A DNA stretch of 24,051 nt from a virus. Below are positions 4,268-15,521 of the stretch, piece after piece. Location: positions 1 to 24,051 of IMG/VR virus record IMGVR_UViG_3300040801_002547; one strand, given 5' to 3'. A model generated the notes under the pieces. That model saw only the letters and a program-made list of their open reading frames with translations, was not told the DNA's origin and searched no databases. Made by a program: the position numbers and the translations under genes. The first letter of the stretch is position 1, and each line of letters opens with the position of its first letter.

Positions 4268-6850
4268 TTAAGTGAAACCCGTTCTTGCAGCAACAGGCGC
4301 AGTATTCACGGGAATTTGATTTTGTGTGATTTGTGCGCCAAACGAAAATGTTAACGCTAAACTATCAGCGCAATCAGGTGAACGAATATTGCGCTTCTTA
4401 GCATCTTCTTTTGACTCAATCAACAACTGACCTGTACTTTTATATTTATAACTCAAGCCACATAAATCAGATTGCAAGTCTTCACTATCCGGTATATCAA
4501 CACCTAAATCATTCAAAAACCAGTCGCGCATCGTTGCCCATATTTCTGCCCGTGTATTTGCATAGCGTTCAGTGTCGCGCGGCTTCTTAGCAACGTTGAC
4601 ACCAACTACAACATGTTGGTAACCCATTTCATGAAGTCTATCAACAACGCCAGCCCCAATGCCAATGGAGTCAATAAACACTTTTTGCGGCGACTCTTTG
4701 TCGATAATCATTTTAACTTTTCCGGCTAACTCCATAGTATCAATACCCTGCCACGTCTGTAAGTCAAACGCTTTTCGCCCACGTCTTCTAATGATTGCGC
4801 TTCTATCTGTTCCTGATCGGGCAGGATCGACACCGATTACTAACCCCGCATCCGTTTCAACAGTGTTTGCCCGCGCACGCTCAACCGCTTGTTTATTGAT
4901 AAAGCTATCAGTAATTGAATTAAGAAAAGCGTCGTCATCAGTGCAATTGTGAACCAATATACCTTGCGCATCAAAAACATGATTTTCATTATCTATAGTT
5001 AAGTCATAAACATACTGCATTCCATTTTCTTTTATCTGTACAACCTTATCTTTAAATTCAATGTTGTTTGCTTTCCTTCCAACATTTTCTTGAGTATTCC
5101 ATGTATTAACTCTTGATTGTTTTCTATAACTTATAAATCCTATTTCATCCATGAATTTAATTGCTTCATTCTTTCTAAGAGCTAATTCATTGCCCGTATA
5201 AGTATGTTTATCATTACCTGCAATTTTTTGTGCATGTGTTCTTTTACAAGTTATTCCAAACCCCAAAAGCAACAACTGTATATCTTTTGCAAAACATTCA
5301 TACTTTGAAAAAAATTTAACCGTTGGATATTTTTTTCCTACAAAACCATCCGCATCAAATAATCCGGATAAAAAACTTTTAATCACATTTTTTGGACTTT
5401 TCCAAATGCAATCAGGAACACATACTTTTCTTTTTGTGTAATTTTTTTTAGTATGATCAACTATCTCGATAATACCTAGTTGTAAAAATATTTCTTTTAA
5501 ATTTATAGATCCGCATCTTAATTCTGTTCCATTGTTAGAAATTTTTCTTTCTATTAATTGCAAACCAAAAAGCTTATGAGTTAAATTTCTAACTTTTTTT
5601 ATTGAATTAATATCATTTTTAGTAAATGCAAAAGATAAAACATTTCCACTGTAACTGCCATCACCCATAAAATAACCTAAAAATAATCCTAATTCTTCTG
5701 TTATTTGAATTTTAAGATCTAAACATGGAAATGTTTTTAATTTTACAGTATGTTGTTTTTTTGAAAAATTAGGAATGGATAAATCTATAAAACTATTAAT
5801 AGATTTTGACGCTTCAACAAAATTATTGTTTGTTGAAATTCTATGATCTAAAGTACATTTTAAAGTATAACCCATATATGTTTGAAGTTCTATTGTCTGT
5901 TTATAACCAGACATCCAAGCTTTTTTTATACAACCGGTATTTGCAGACATACCGGCTTTAACTTCACAAATTGGCAAAATACCTGAGTCTGTACCTACAC
6001 GCTGGTCACCCACAATACACGGGTATTCTTGTGAGAAACTTCTGGCTTTCTGATCGTCATCACCATCCATATCTGAAAGCTTAATTCTACGCCATGCCAA
6101 ATGCTTTGTTGTTAAGCCATTGGCACCATATAACTGTAACCACGTCTGTTCCTCAAGCGTCGGCACAAAGCCATCATCATTCGCTGTGTATTCATCTTGC
6201 CAAAACCATGGCACAAATATAGCTTGCCAGTGCGATTGCCCTGACTTTGCAGCTTGCCAGTCTCGATAAAAGTCATTTGTTACGCCGTTAGCTGTCGACT
6301 CTTTTATCTTTTCAGTGCCCTCGATGTCAGCAACCGTGTTTTCAAGACCTTTTTTAATGTCAGCAGTGTTTTGATAAAAAGCATATTCTGATAAGTGTAG
6401 CAGCTGGTTTGTTTGCGAGCGACCAACGTCACCGCTTCCAGCCGTACCCACACGATAGCCTGACTCTAACGGCTTGCCAAACGTTAAGCGATTGTGACTG
6501 TCTTGTGTCGCTTTCGGAGCAAGCCCATCGGGCAAATTCTTGTAATAGCGTTTTGTGATATCAAACAAGTTGCGCGTTGCGTCGCTGTGATGCGTTAAGA
6601 TAAAAGCTTGTGTGCCTGGCTTAGTTAAAACTTGATGTAAAAAGCGAGATTGTACATAAGTTGAACATCCTTGTTGCCTTCCTTTCAGAATCAGCGCCCT
6701 AACCATGCCCGTTGCTTTGCGCTGTTCTTCAAGTCTCTGATGGATATACAATTGAGCGCGATTAAGCTTAAACGGCACTAATCGACCGGACTTGTCAGCG
6801 ATATGATAAAAAGAAGGGGCAAATTGAAGTAAGTCCAAAACGTCAATCAT
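4268..6850 (-). CDS. Terminase large subunit interrupted by an intein
   Basis: This protein of 860 residues is predicted to splice to 502, close to P22 gp2 (499). N-extein (residues 1-277) is the packaging ATPase, with the P-loop-like LKGRQQGCST (55-64), a Walker-B-like LLHLSE (150-155) and the coupling motif STANG (185-189). C-extein (636-860) is the RNase-H-like nuclease, with VIGVDPARSGTD (671-682), KVFIDSIGIG (723-732) and SPDCADSLAL (824-833) supplying the acidic metal ligands. The intein breaks the conserved QEYP/C junction and Cys636 is the +1 residue. The start overlaps the small terminase stop by 8 bp, implying translational coupling. Without splicing the two enzyme domains would be separated by 358 residues, so packaging probably depends on splicing. 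Confidence 0.95.
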   Translation of the reverse strand: MIDVLDLLQFAPSFYHIADKSGRLVPFKLNRAQLYIHQRLEEQRKATGMVRALILKGRQQGCSTYVQSRFLHQVLTKPGTQAFILTHHSDATRNLFDITKRYYKNLPDGLAPKATQDSHNRLTFGKPLESGYRVGTAGSGDVGRSQTNQLLHLSEYAFYQNTADIKKGLENTVADIEGTEKIKESTANGVTNDFYRDWQAAKSGQSHWQAIFVPWFWQDEYTANDDGFVPTLEEQTWLQLYGANGLTTKHLAWRRIKLSDMDGDDDQKARSFSQEYPCIVGDQRVGTDSGILPICEVKAGMSANTGCIKKAWMSGYKQTIELQTYMGYTLKCTLDHRISTNNNFVEASKSINSFIDLSIPNFSKKQHTVKLKTFPCLDLKIQITEELGLFLGYFMGDGSYSGNVLSFAFTKNDINSIKKVRNLTHKLFGLQLIERKISNNGTELRCGSINLKEIFLQLGIIEIVDHTKKNYTKRKVCVPDCIWKSPKNVIKSFLSGLFDADGFVGKKYPTVKFFSKYECFAKDIQLLLLGFGITCKRTHAQKIAGNDKHTYTGNELALRKNEAIKFMDEIGFISYRKQSRVNTWNTQENVGRKANNIEFKDKVVQIKENGMQYVYDLTIDNENHVFDAQGILVHNCTDDDAFLNSITDSFINKQAVERARANTVETDAGLVIGVDPARSGTDRSAIIRRRGRKAFDLQTWQGIDTMELAGKVKMIIDKESPQKVFIDSIGIGAGVVDRLHEMGYQHVVVGVNVAKKPRDTERYANTRAEIWATMRDWFLNDLGVDIPDSEDLQSDLCGLSYKYKSTGQLLIESKEDAKKRNIRSPDCADSLALTFSFGAQITQNQIPVNTAPVAARTGFT
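4946..6019 (-). other. Intein with LAGLIDADG homing endonuclease inside terminase
   Basis: This in-frame element covers precursor residues 278-635 (358 residues). Splice block A begins with Cys278 (CIVGDQRVGTDSG). Block B has TLDH (333-336). Block F/G is HVFDAQGILVHN followed by Cys636, giving the standard terminal His-Asn/Cys. Between them lie two dodecapeptide motifs, LGYFMGDGS (391-399, Asp397) and LSGLFDADG (494-502, Asp501), of a LAGLIDADG endonuclease. All key splice and nuclease residues are present, so both activities look intact. DNA of the intein is visibly more AT-rich than the flanking extein; for example 5401-5460 has about 27% G+C against about 55% at 6421-6480. This supports recent arrival. 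Confidence 0.95.
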
Positions 6851-8484: not shown

Positions 8485-8502
8485 GCGCGCATTTAAGCGC
8501 GC
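8485..8502. other. GC-rich hairpin between convergent genes
   Basis: GCGCGC (8485-8490), a loop ATTTAA, then GCGCGC (8497-8502). The stop codon of the minus-strand gene lies in the loop and base of the hairpin. There is no T-run on either strand, so it is not a canonical Rho-independent terminator, but it could slow converging transcription. Confidence 0.5.
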
Positions 8503-8696
8503 TGACAAACAAAATCCTGACATCCCTGGCTTACCCATACATTGATAGCGTCCTCAAGCTCAGCACGACTTATCTTTTCATTTATCAAATCTTGCTTATC
8601 TTCTTTAGATAATAATTTCATTGAAATATCAACTGGTGCAACATCATAACGTTGTGCAATCTCAATAATCCATTTTTTTATTAACTTAATATCCAT
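8493..8696 (-). CDS. Small hypothetical protein next to the iteron array
   Basis: This 67-residue frame is read from the ATG at 8696 (MDIKLIKKWIIEIAQRYDV), which has an AAAAGG ribosome site. The frame could open 20 codons earlier at 8756, but that extension enters the iteron DNA and lacks a ribosome site, so the shorter start is preferred. The product is helical, with a helix-turn-helix-like rhythm (IIEIAQRYDVAPVDISMKLL), and ends VWVSQGCQDFVCQRA. Its function is unknown. It lies between the presumed origin and the plus-strand pair, so a small DNA-binding role at the origin is possible. Confidence 0.6.
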   Translation of the reverse strand: MDIKLIKKWIIEIAQRYDVAPVDISMKLLSKEDKQDLINEKISRAELEDAINVWVSQGCQDFVCQRA

Positions 8697-8890
8697 ATTT
8701 AGCCTTTTAGTATGTATTTTAATTATATAGATTACAAATATATCACGGGGTGACACCTGGTGACACCTATTAATTTTAAAAAAATATAGGTGTCACCTCC
8801 TACAACCCCCGCCACCATTGAATTGGTGACACCTGTGACACCTGTGACACCATTTTCGGAAGACTTTCATAATTTTAACGTTTATCTTTG

Positions 8891-8911
8891 TATATATATA
8901 TATATATATAT
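8891..8911. repeat. (TA)10 tract in the iteron array
   Basis: About ten TA steps in a row, flanked by other AT-rich DNA (8870-8935). They sit between the left iteron cluster (8749-8851) and the right one (8936-9097). This is the most easily melted DNA of the region and a candidate unwinding element. Confidence 0.65.
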
Positions 8912-8953
8912 TAAAAACCCTTTATATAGAAAATAGGTGTCACAGGTGTCACC

Positions 8954-9019
8954 TTTTAAAAAAAAGCCCATGAATAAAGGGCTGTAAGGGTGACACCTAA
9001 AAAAACTATAGGTGTCACC
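8954..9019. repeat. 66-bp direct repeat, copy 1
   Basis: It is identical by eye to 9032-9097 (period 78 bp; the 12 bp between are one further iteron plus TT). Each copy holds a T-run/A-run, a GCCC...GGGC hairpin, and a facing pair of iterons. Confidence 0.85.
8958..8983 (-). terminator. Terminator-like hairpin in repeat copy 1
   Basis: On the minus strand a 5-bp AGCCC/GGGCT stem (8965-8969 and 8979-8983) with a 9-nt loop is followed by eight T. It would stop minus-strand transcripts crossing the origin. Confidence 0.55.
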
Positions 9020-9031
9020 AGGTGTCACCTT

Positions 9032-9097
9032 TTTTAAAAAAAAGCCCATGAATAAAGGGCTGTAAGGGTGACACCTAAAAAAACTATAGGTGTCACC
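9032..9097. repeat. 66-bp direct repeat, copy 2
   Basis: Second copy of the 8954-9019 unit, without any mismatch seen by eye. Perfect identity points to a recent duplication or to active homogenisation. Confidence 0.85.
9036..9061 (-). terminator. Terminator-like hairpin in repeat copy 2
   Basis: Same 5-bp stem and eight-T tail as at 8958-8983, displaced by 78 bp. Together with the hairpin at 9115-9142 it makes three successive minus-strand stops after the primase gene. Confidence 0.55.
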
Positions 9098-9114
9098 TCA
9101 TTAGATTTTTTTAT

Positions 9115-9142
9115 AAAAAAAAAGAGCTAATTTAGCTCTTTT
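9115..9142 (-). terminator. Terminator at the end of the early minus-strand operon
   Basis: An 8-bp stem AAAGAGCT/AGCTCTTT (9121-9128 and 9134-9141) with a 5-nt loop has nine A on its left (T-run on the minus strand) and TTTT on its right. It lies 22 bp after the primase stop codon and closes the early operon; it could act in both directions. Confidence 0.8.
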
Positions 9143-9163
9143 GATTTAATGTGAGTTTTATTT

Positions 9164-10945
9164 TTACAATATATGTTTGGGGATCTTGTAAACTTTTCCT
9201 TTTTTTGTTTTTTGTTTTTCAATATTCATTTTTTTTAAGATGCTTCCGATTTTAGTAGAGTTTGCACGATTAATAACAATATTTAATTCTTTACATATTT
9301 CAGTTGAAGTTTTCCAAAAAAAGCATGGTTGATTCCAGTCATAGCTTGTCATTAACAATTCTGCGATGGGATCGATCATTTTCATATCTTGTTGGCTTTC
9401 TTCTAATAGCGCTAACTCGCTGTCATTTAAATAAGGTTTTGCACCGGCTTGATATAATTCATACGCTGCCCGCCAGACTTGTTGCATATCGAGATTATGA
9501 TTTAAATTGATATTATCTATTAATGATATTGTCCACCAACGGCGGTTTCCGGTGTCATCAACTAAAAAGCGATCTTCATTAACAGTAGCAATAAAAACTG
9601 TTTGCCGGGGTACTCTCATGCTGTTTTTGGCATACGGTATGCGATAAACATCATAACTGAGGGTTATAAACGATTTTAATCGAGCAATATCTGATTTTCT
9701 GAAAGTCCCGTCCAGCTCGCCCAATTCTGTGATAAAACTTTCTGTAGCTTGTTTTATTGAATCAACAGATTGAACATCTAAAAGATGTCCAAGTTTTGAT
9801 GATTGCTTGATTGGGCAAAGATGTTCAACAAAAGATGTTTTTCTAACCCCCTGATTTCCTTTTAAAACTAATACGCCTTGTTGCGTAAAGTCATTGTCAA
9901 AAAGCACATACATGGCCTGTATCATCCAGGTTAATAATAAATGCTGAGACATTTCAGGGTTTTCACATGGTAATATTTTTAAAAATTCATAAATAATTTC
10001 GGGCGACTCTAAGGGCTTAGATAAAATCCAGTCTTTAACAGGATGGTAAGAGTTTAATTGGCATATTGCGGTTAATTGTTGATTGACGTAGGTTCTACTG
10101 ATTCCATTTAATATACATAAATCCTCAACGATATTTAAAATGCTATTATCAGAATCATTTTTATAAACATTAAAATCATATGCGTTAAATTCTCGTTGTT
10201 TTGTCATTTCATTATAATGACAATAAATATTATAATATTTAAGCAAGCATTCTAAATTTTTGGTTGTAGAAAGCGGTTTGTCTTTATCATTTAAATGAAT
10301 AAAATTAATGTTTTTTTCACTTTGTGTACTGTAATCAACAGCGTTTTCAATAGCTTTATGACATTCTTGCGATAAAAAATCAGATTCTATTTTATCTATT
10401 TTTTCACTTGATAAATCTGCTAAATCCCATCCTTTTGTCGTTATAAACTCAGGTAACTTTACAATTTTCACTGAATTAGAAAAATGATGAAGCCGGCTGG
10501 CAAGAACATCCATGGCTTTAAAACCTGGACTGTCGTTGTCAGGCCATAAAATAACATCTCTGTTTGCTAAACAGGAAATATTCGCATGTTTAGCAGCGGA
10601 ACTGCCGCCAAGCCAGGATACTGTTACATATTGCGGGAATTGATTTAAACAAAAGTCAGCAGTTTTTTCACCTTCAACGATTAAAACTTGAGCATGGGGG
10701 AATTTGCTTAATAAGTGTTCATTATAAAGTGGTTTGGTGCCGTATAACGTTATTTCAAGTTTTGGCGCTTTAAAAATAACATTATTGTTTTTATCAACAT
10801 ATCCCGGCAGTATTTTTTTTGATTTTCCATCTTTTGAATTACTTCGATAAGTAAATCCTACAAACTGGTTTTCATAATCAAAGTATTCCCAATATGTTTT
10901 ATTTTTTTCTTTAAATTGTTTGTAATTTATTTTATCATTAGGCAT
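9164..10945 (-). CDS. TOPRIM primase - VirE-family helicase (replication initiator)
   Basis: This 593-residue replication protein combines two units. A TOPRIM fold has VEGEKTAD (90-97) and the acidic WPDNDSPGF (134-142) with a following DLADL (174-178). A VirE-family P-loop ATPase has GNQGVRKTS (363-371), ITELGELD (405-412), VPRQTVFIATVNE (445-457) and TGNRRWW (465-471). No N-terminal zinc ribbon is seen. The last 55 residues (STEICKELN...STKIGSILKKMNIEKQ..KGKVYKIPK) read as a winged helix, a likely DNA-binding end for the iterons just downstream. It would open the origin and prime replication. The ATG at 10945 has AAGGA; it is the last gene of the early minus-strand operon. Confidence 0.9.
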   Translation of the reverse strand: MPNDKINYKQFKEKNKTYWEYFDYENQFVGFTYRSNSKDGKSKKILPGYVDKNNNVIFKAPKLEITLYGTKPLYNEHLLSKFPHAQVLIVEGEKTADFCLNQFPQYVTVSWLGGSSAAKHANISCLANRDVILWPDNDSPGFKAMDVLASRLHHFSNSVKIVKLPEFITTKGWDLADLSSEKIDKIESDFLSQECHKAIENAVDYSTQSEKNINFIHLNDKDKPLSTTKNLECLLKYYNIYCHYNEMTKQREFNAYDFNVYKNDSDNSILNIVEDLCILNGISRTYVNQQLTAICQLNSYHPVKDWILSKPLESPEIIYEFLKILPCENPEMSQHLLLTWMIQAMYVLFDNDFTQQGVLVLKGNQGVRKTSFVEHLCPIKQSSKLGHLLDVQSVDSIKQATESFITELGELDGTFRKSDIARLKSFITLSYDVYRIPYAKNSMRVPRQTVFIATVNEDRFLVDDTGNRRWWTISLIDNINLNHNLDMQQVWRAAYELYQAGAKPYLNDSELALLEESQQDMKMIDPIAELLMTSYDWNQPCFFWKTSTEICKELNIVINRANSTKIGSILKKMNIEKQKTKKGKVYKIPKHIL

Positions 10946-14557: not shown

Positions 14558-14812
14558 TCAAGAGCGATCAGTATACTCATAATTTTTCGGCAAAAATTCA
14601 TCAATTACAGACATCCCAATTAATATTGCATCACTAACATTTGATAAGCCGCCCAAATCATAAACACATTCGCAATACGAACATTTTACACGAACCTCAA
14701 GCGTTCTATTATCTACGTTGTCAATAAACTCTTTGTTAATGACGATTTTGTAATTTTTATACATATATGATTCTTGTTCTTGCCAGTGATTCGGCTGGTT
14801 ATTTTTTGTCAT
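14558..14812 (-). CDS. 84-residue hypothetical protein after cro
   Basis: The frame starts MTKNNQPNHWQEQESYMYKN and overlaps the end of the Cro-like gene by 14 bp; a start 16 codons later (MYKNYKIVINKEF) is possible. A central KCSYCECVYD offers three cysteines, perhaps part of a metal site. The remainder is a short beta/alpha pattern ending VIDEFLPKNYEYTDRS. It is the second gene of the early minus-strand operon. No family is recognised. Confidence 0.65.
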   Translation of the reverse strand: MTKNNQPNHWQEQESYMYKNYKIVINKEFIDNVDNRTLEVRVKCSYCECVYDLGGLSNVSDAILIGMSVIDEFLPKNYEYTDRS

Positions 14813-14975
14813 CAGATTTAAATTTCCCCTGTGTTAATAGTTCAATTTTCTTTTGTGTGTTTGCCGGTATAAAACCATCTTTTTTCCACCGATAAACTGT
14901 ATTGTTGTGAAAACCCAATTCATTGGCCAGCCGGTAACAGGTTTTATATTCTTTTAATAAATCATTAATTGTCAT
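14799..14975 (-). CDS. cro: Cro-like helix-turn-helix repressor
   Basis: This 58-residue protein starts MTINDLLKEYKTCYRLANEL and continues GFHNNTVYRWKKDGFIPANT with QKKIELLTQGK, the fold of P22/DicC-type Cro: a short HTH (residues about 14-30) with recognition helix NNTVYRWKK, then a closing helix. The GAGGG ribosome site is 7 nt before the ATG at 14975. It is the first gene of the early minus-strand operon and lies next to a 16-bp inverted repeat that overlaps its own -10 box and that of the opposing operon. It very likely binds there. The matching CI-type repressor is not in the window. The symbol is by type, not homology search. Confidence 0.85.
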   Translation of the reverse strand: MTINDLLKEYKTCYRLANELGFHNNTVYRWKKDGFIPANTQKKIELLTQGKFKSDDKK

Positions 14976-15000
14976 TTGTTTGCCCTCAACTTAAAAATGT

Positions 15001-15029
15001 AATATACCCTGTTTTGTTGACATTGTAAA
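15001..15029 (-). promoter_or_regulatory. Sigma70 promoter for the early minus-strand operon
   Basis: Reading leftward: TTTACA (15024-15029), 17 bp, then TATATT (15001-15006). The -10 lies within the left operator arm. The first gene is the Cro-like repressor, so it is self-regulated. Confidence 0.85.
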
Positions 15030-15045
15030 CTGTTTAGGGTATATT
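15017..15045 (+). promoter_or_regulatory. Sigma70 promoter for the plus-strand recombination operon
   Basis: A consensus TTGACA (15017-15022), 17 bp, then TATATT (15040-15045). The -10 lies within the right operator arm. It overlaps the leftward promoter in the -35 region, so the two polymerases would compete as well. Confidence 0.9.
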
Positions 15046-15098
15046 ACATTTACGTCATCACTCGGCGTAGTTATATAAACTTAAAAAGAGGAATAAAA

Positions 15099-15521
15099 AT
15101 GTTTGATAAAAAAGTTTTTGAAGAAAGTCAGCAAAAAATTTTGGAAGATAAAGTAAAAACGATTGATGCTATTAATCATCAAATCGCAGAATTTAACAGA
15201 ATTAAAAGTGAGCTTGAGCAACAGGTTTTTGATAGTCTTGAACATGATAAAATTGGCCAAAAAAGTTATATAGTGGGTGAGTATGCTGTAACAATTAAAA
15301 CAGGCGTTAATTATTCGATCAATTTAGAAGAATATGAAGTTTATAAAAATCATTTGTCTGATAGTTTTAACCCAGTTATACAGAAAACAAAATATGAAGT
15401 TAACAAAAAGCTTTTAGAAGAGGCTCAAAAGTATGGCTCTCAAAAAGATTTAGAAACAATTGCTAAGTTTATTACTGAAAAACCTGCTAAGCTTTACGTC
15501 GCTGTAAAACCAAACGCCTAA
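15099..15521 (+). CDS. Coiled-coil companion of the recombination operon
   Basis: This 140-residue protein has an N-terminal coiled coil (MFDKKVFEESQQKILEDKVK and on through HQIAEFNRIKSELEQQ, about residues 10-50), then a beta hairpin (YIVGEYAVTIKTGVNYSI), and a C-terminal helical part ending FITEKPAKLYVAVKPNA. A protein of this layout often precedes a Sak4-type ATPase in phage recombination operons, but no activity is established. The overall shape recalls Mu Gam-like nuclease inhibitors only loosely. AGAGGA precedes the ATG. First gene after the divergent operator. Confidence 0.75.
   Translation: MFDKKVFEESQQKILEDKVKTIDAINHQIAEFNRIKSELEQQVFDSLEHDKIGQKSYIVGEYAVTIKTGVNYSINLEEYEVYKNHLSDSFNPVIQKTKYEVNKKLLEEAQKYGSQKDLETIAKFITEKPAKLYVAVKPNA

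Follow-up and report, generated by a model that had tools for sequence, protein, structure and literature searches.

The closest described counterparts of the locus analyzed here are the replication origins of SaPI and PICI elements, for example SaPIbov1 and EcCICFT073, which are situated directly 3' of the gene encoding their initiator (Rep or Pri-Rep). As described in three papers (PMC7581432, PMC6092414, and PMC9894130), these initiators are self-loading hexameric helicases that read DNA via their C-terminal domain. SaPI origins, directly downstream of rep, are bound through this domain, apparently by two hexamers (PMC7581432), and their repeats, which have opposite orientations, direct head-to-head hexamers (PMC9894130). 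In PICI origins, an AT-rich region lies between two sets of iterons, and the paper reporting this describes the origin type as common to no other known replicon (PMC6092414). SaPIbov1 Rep is a DUF927 protein, and SaPI5 Rep is a D5_N protein (PMC7581432). P4 offers a second point of comparison. Its alpha protein is a primase-helicase, and its short GGTGAACA iterons, some of which are 9-11 b apart, form one cluster (crr) directly 3' of alpha, but the annotated P4 origin (ori1) is separate from crr, ∼4.5 kb away. Finally, iteron plasmid origins of the RepA/DnaA type consist of short repeats and an AT-rich unwinding element.

The window, i.e. the whole stretch of DNA that was analyzed, is a linear IMG/VR contig of 24,051 b, a fragment of a genome. 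It contains tailed-phage genes (major head protein, scaffold, P22-like portal, TerS, TerL, tail proteins, and endolysin) and is thus not a PICI-type satellite, together with recombination/replication genes (Sak4-like ATPase, SSB, Cas4-like exonuclease, and helicase). The TerL gene (4268-6850, minus strand) is interrupted in frame by an intein that includes a LAGLIDADG endonuclease domain.

The presumed initiator is a VapE-type primase-helicase of 593 aa encoded on the minus strand (9164-10945; PF05272, E = 1.8e-45), for which AlphaFold2 produced a model with a pLDDT of 89. Three modules are predicted, i.e. an N-terminal TOPRIM/T7-gp4-like module, a VapE AAA+ helicase core, and a C-terminal winged helix. 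In structure comparisons of the predicted fold, residues ∼4-205 match T7 gp4/DnaG (Z 13-14), whereas for residues 210-593 the closest solved structure is that of PriRep1 (PDB 7pds, with dsDNA, "similar to D. nodosus vapE"), with a Z score of 26.6 across 380 residues, the C-terminal domain among them, although sequence identity to the window's VapE is only ∼21%; the match to SaPI5 has a Z score of 12.9. The winged helix (aa 526-593; 9167-9370, minus strand), predicted at high confidence, is the presumed reader of the iterons. When this domain was compared in isolation, Foldseek returned no match at E < 0.001, and a second structure aligner returned mostly winged-helix DNA-binding proteins with Z scores of 5-6.5, which speak for the fold class only. 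A search of viral and genome contigs by exact peptide words returned no close relative of the primase.

On the 3' side of this gene, between it and the next gene, noncoding DNA contains 13 copies of GGTG(A/T)CACC (8749-9097), 10 exact and three with one mismatch, the array starting 67 b past the VapE stop. The copies start at 8749, 8759, 8789, 8825, 8834, 8843, 8936, 8945, 8989, 9011, 9021, 9067, and 9089, of which 8834, 8843, and 8936 are the imperfect ones that read TGTGACACC or GGTGTCACA. All are where the original prediction had placed them. Allowing one mismatch, there are 16 matches to the 9-mer in the whole window, a number that none of 100 dinucleotide shuffles equaled (mean 1.5, maximum 6), and no exact pair of 9-mers was found elsewhere in the 24,051-b record. 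The accompanying claims that a (TA)n tract lies amid the repeats and that no gene fits in 8757-9110 were borne out as well, since the tract sits in the 84-b gap between two repeat blocks and no ORF of at least 60 aa lies within 8757-9163. The neighboring ORF (8493-8756) has a GTG start inside the first repeat, and an ATG is available further in. Rfam and tRNA scans gave no match.

The inner parts of the array form its core. An inner triple of plus-strand iterons, GGTGACACC TGTGACACC TGTGACACC, 9 b apart (8825-8851), is opposed to an inner minus-strand pair, GGTGTCACA GGTGTCACC, also 9 b apart (8936-8953), across a spacer of 84 b (8852-8935) that is 83% AT, includes a (TA)10 tract, and contains the least stable 30 and 50 b of the window, making it the presumed unwinding element. 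Counted from the VapE stop, the pair is at 211/220 and the triple at 312/321/330. Beyond the triple, two exact GGTGACACC copies 10 b apart (8749-8767, plus strand) are followed by a GGTGTCACC copy (8789-8797, minus strand) that faces the 8759 copy and belongs to a 19-b inverted repeat (I9). On the VapE side, an outer plus-strand iteron (8989-8997) faces the first of two tandem GGTGTCACC copies (9011-9029, minus strand), and another (9067-9075, plus strand) faces the minus-strand copy closest to the VapE stop (9089-9097). These outer copies lie in a 78-b direct duplication (8954-9031/9032-9109, 90% identical), each unit of which includes a facing iteron pair and, between iterons, a GCCC...GGGC stretch that reads as a hairpin, followed by a T-run on the minus strand. 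A bidirectional terminator-like hairpin (9120-9142) separates the VapE gene from the array. Duplications of this sort have parallels in the 120-b one of P4 crr and in a 79-b one, different in sequence but in the matching place, at another VapE locus (L017).

This anatomy corresponds to that of SaPI/PICI origins in that the array is immediately 3' of the initiator gene, two iteron sets (8825-8851 and 8936-8953) flank an AT-rich spacer, and the repeats have opposite orientations. Because the 9-mer is palindromic except for its center, its orientation has to be read from the central A/T and from the T or A next to the repeat. By its predicted fold, the VapE also belongs to the class of self-loading hexameric helicases with a C-terminal DNA-binding domain. 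The window differs in its iteron sequence and in having a VapE-family initiator, unlike SaPIbov1 or SaPI5 Rep. The original prediction had instead proposed a P4-type model. If the system were bipartite as in P4, the initiator would bind the array as an accessory site comparable to crr, and the actual origin would be elsewhere. Indeed, crr is immediately 3' of alpha, its type 1 repeats (GGTGAACA) are spaced at 9 b, and its direct duplication is rather like that of the window. However, P4 ori1 carries six more type 1 repeats, whereas the 9-mer is clustered nowhere else in the 24-kb window, itself a genome fragment. Moreover, the repeat blocks beside the AT-rich stretch of ori1 have the same orientation, whereas those of the window are inverted across the spacer as in PICI, and alpha is a D5_N/Pox_D5 protein in which no VapE domain was found. 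The array thus resembles P4 less than SaPI, and we consider a bipartite arrangement very unlikely; an origin of SaPI/PICI type fits better. Differences from RepA/DnaA-type origins are also apparent, as the initiator is itself a helicase and both repeat orientations occur in a fixed pattern. A DnaA-dependent iteron origin was rejected, since the DnaA box TTWTNCACA has no match in the window (5.7 expected).

We next compared the array with other viral sequences. Three copies of GTGACACC at 9-b spacing were found in 16 viral contigs. In four of these (L338, L341, L342, and L343), they form a noncoding array with VapE immediately upstream, whereas in the other 12 they are in-frame coding repeats in contigs without a VapE gene. 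The inner triple of the window recurs as such in L341, L342, and L343. Among VapE proteins with this iteron, those of L342 and L343 are the closest to the window's protein (38-39% identity), and their array has the same layout. In L342 (3990-4281), GCCTACAACCCTTACTGGGCTTGAGAT on one side of the inner iteron blocks and its complement on the other form a long inverted repeat. In L017, with a VapE of 24% identity, the exact 9-mer is present ten times directly 3' of the gene. The window's iteron is thus shared, just 3' of VapE, by five independent VapE phages (L342, L343, L341, L338, and L017), and enterobacterial plasmids of 9 kb carry it there as well (see below). A sixth locus (L113) has six exact copies 1.6 kb from VapE. 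A search of phage records for DNA-level relatives of the array found none, and GGTGWCACC at 10-b spacing had five matches, about what we estimate for chance.

A less stringent search, for three 9-mers within 30-b gaps in viral contigs, was discarded as a marker of VapE arrays because it is unspecific, yielding 110 stretches, mostly without VapE, against 38 for the reversed motif. That such triplets, often spaced at 22-23 b, occur in unrelated phage contigs might suggest that a phage repressor or a transcription regulator uses the array as its operator. However, VapE was present wherever noncoding tandem triples at 9 b were found, and the array is downstream of VapE behind terminator-like hairpins, where a promoter scan revealed no excess. 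Considering also that the layout is stereotyped and that the iteron sequence shifts with the VapE C terminus (see below), an operator array is highly improbable, and the reading as an origin is preferred.

To determine how general the arrangement is, we assembled a set of VapE loci drawn from phages and plasmids as well as from viral contigs and genomes, of which 127 remained after redundancy was reduced at 85% aa identity. De novo arrays, for which one 8-mer had to occur five or more times, with both orientations represented, within 500 b around/after the VapE stop, were present in 30 of the 127 loci (24%), compared with 2/115 on the 5' side of the gene, 3/1020 windows elsewhere in the same loci (0.3%), and 0/127 shuffled sequences. 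A sequence-blind geometry test (a tandem pair, 45-125 b, then an inverted tandem pair) was positive on the 3' side in 42/127 loci and on the 5' side in 3/122, as well as in 16/1067 windows elsewhere and 1/127 shuffled sequences, with a median spacer of 82 b. Since the loci share ancestry, redundancy having been reduced by the 85% cut alone, Fisher values for these comparisons are descriptive. The iteron sequence varies by locus (AGGGTAACC in L217, AGTGCAACC in L186, and ACTGACAGT and GGTGGGAT among others), whereas the layout is constant. One tandem block, at 8-10 b, is followed by a spacer, mostly 55-110 b long and mostly AT-rich, by a second tandem block of opposite orientation, and by outer copies that face each other ∼20-22 b apart. 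The mixture of tandem and facing spacing in the window, regarded in the original prediction as not a textbook layout, is therefore the normal layout of the VapE class. Two thirds or more of the VapE loci have no array detectable by these methods, which require repeats that are exact or differ by one mismatch, and for some VapE genes the origin may be of another kind or far away. Arrays 5' of VapE or more than 1 kb from it do exist (L166, L167, L172, and L113). Different iteron arrays are 5' of VapE in phages SFCi1 (L166, 489-765) and Vibrio 1.009.O (L167, 887-1005), and others are near VapE in phages Alexa (L165, 3983-4215) and Persinger (L172, 8011-8214) and in plasmid pTM2 (L161, 5963-6220).

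To ask which initiator region recognizes the iteron, we examined covariation in 35 loci, with the C-terminal region defined as aa 523-593 of the window's protein. Iteron similarity correlates with C-terminal identity when the ATPase core is controlled for (partial Mantel r = 0.22, p = 0.0005), but not with the ATPase core when the C terminus is controlled for (r = -0.02, p = 0.65). An orientation-free version gave r = 0.15 and p = 0.005 for the C terminus, and the middle region gives no correlation. This covariation is significant but modest in size. At the level of motifs, AGGGT/AGGGC-type iterons pair with the wing (K/R)KSNG, and AGTGCA-type iterons with (K/R)R(S/T)NG(V/K) or close to it. 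The N-terminal primase module differs freely among VapE proteins (TOPRIM, Prim-Pol, and PriCT-2). Together with the predicted fold, these findings point to the C-terminal winged helix as the presumed iteron reader.

Natural exchanges on ∼9-kb enterobacterial plasmids, which have a VapE or DUF5906 initiator (L168, L169, L352, and L353), offer a further view. L168 (pSCU-121-2) and L169, from E. coli and Salmonella, have 11 copies of AGGTGTCA past VapE and one small ORF, and no annotated initiator besides VapE. In the plasmids found by a search with the plasmid origin, the DNA downstream of the array is ∼97% identical to L168, and the first 289 b past the initiator stop are 95% identical between L352 and L168. 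Between these shared flanks, initiator and iterons differ together in three plasmid types, i.e. a VapE with 11 copies of TGACACCT (L168), a different VapE with 11 copies of TGTTCCCC (L352), and a DUF5906-type initiator with 10 copies of GGTTACAA (L353/L354). Although the iterons of L168 and L352 are unrelated, their orientation order is identical (-++---++--+) and their distances are nearly equal. L352 retains, at 95% DNA identity, the small ORF that separates VapE from the array, indicating that this ORF is not the specificity determinant. These exchanges also bear on whether the array could be a partition, packaging (pac), or recombination site, associated with VapE by linkage only. Such sites use repeat arrays too, and terminase genes are in the same window, but the position of the array relative to VapE and the co-exchange of iterons with the initiator on plasmids without annotated terminase or partition gene make this the least probable of the alternatives.

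Taken together, the 3' position, the geometry, the joint exchange on plasmids, and the covariation with the C-terminal winged helix best support the original proposal that the array is an origin and the VapE its cognate initiator. The array is very probably the replication origin of the phage, of SaPI/PICI type, at which the VapE would bind and initiate. The original prediction had also proposed cumulative GC skew as a check, which we ran. There is no inflection at the array, and the sole clear switch is at ∼15 kb; because this switch tracks the direction of transcription, and because the window is a linear piece of the genome, the skew is uninformative for the origin. The sign change (∼14800-15100) coincides with a divergence of transcription, and no repeat cluster was seen there.

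By analogy with SaPI/PICI, we infer how initiation might proceed. The C-terminal winged helix of VapE would bind the GGTGWCACC iterons, and the inner triple and inner pair, opposed across the AT-rich spacer, would nucleate one hexamer each, so that two helicases would be loaded head to head and would melt the (TA)-rich spacer (8852-8935). Two opposed hexamers melting this segment are proposed because the SaPI/PICI anatomy is present, the least stable 50 b of the window are in the spacer, and there is no DnaA box. The outer facing pairs may stabilize or regulate assembly, and priming could be carried out by the N-terminal TOPRIM module or by a host primase.

Although this origin type is already known, finding it in a tailed phage that has structural genes of its own, and more widely among phages and plasmids with VapE, extends its range, because the type was described as shared with no other known replicon (PMC6092414) and our literature search found no paper with both VapE and iteron. 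Being seen in tailed phages and small plasmids, the origin type goes with the initiator family and not with satellites. We lean slightly towards the broader view that the VapE initiators of tailed phages, plasmids, and satellites constitute one origin system, in which the geometry is fixed and the iteron, read by the small C-terminal winged helix, diversifies freely. If so, origins would be predictable from sequence, as the iteron varies in step with the C-terminal domain within a fixed layout, and each iteron/winged-helix pair would mark a replication compatibility group of phages, satellites, and plasmids sharing a cell. The rules by which a 70-residue winged helix chooses its iteron could be tested with natural pairs.

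Several of the ∼9-kb plasmids have a gene annotated as tail tape measure and no other structural gene. L168, L169, L352, and L353 look like satellites or phage-plasmid remnants that differ by an initiator-plus-origin cassette, and L354 (CP077066.1, 1-17382), in which one gene set is present twice, looks like a head-to-tail dimer of a 9-kb plasmid.
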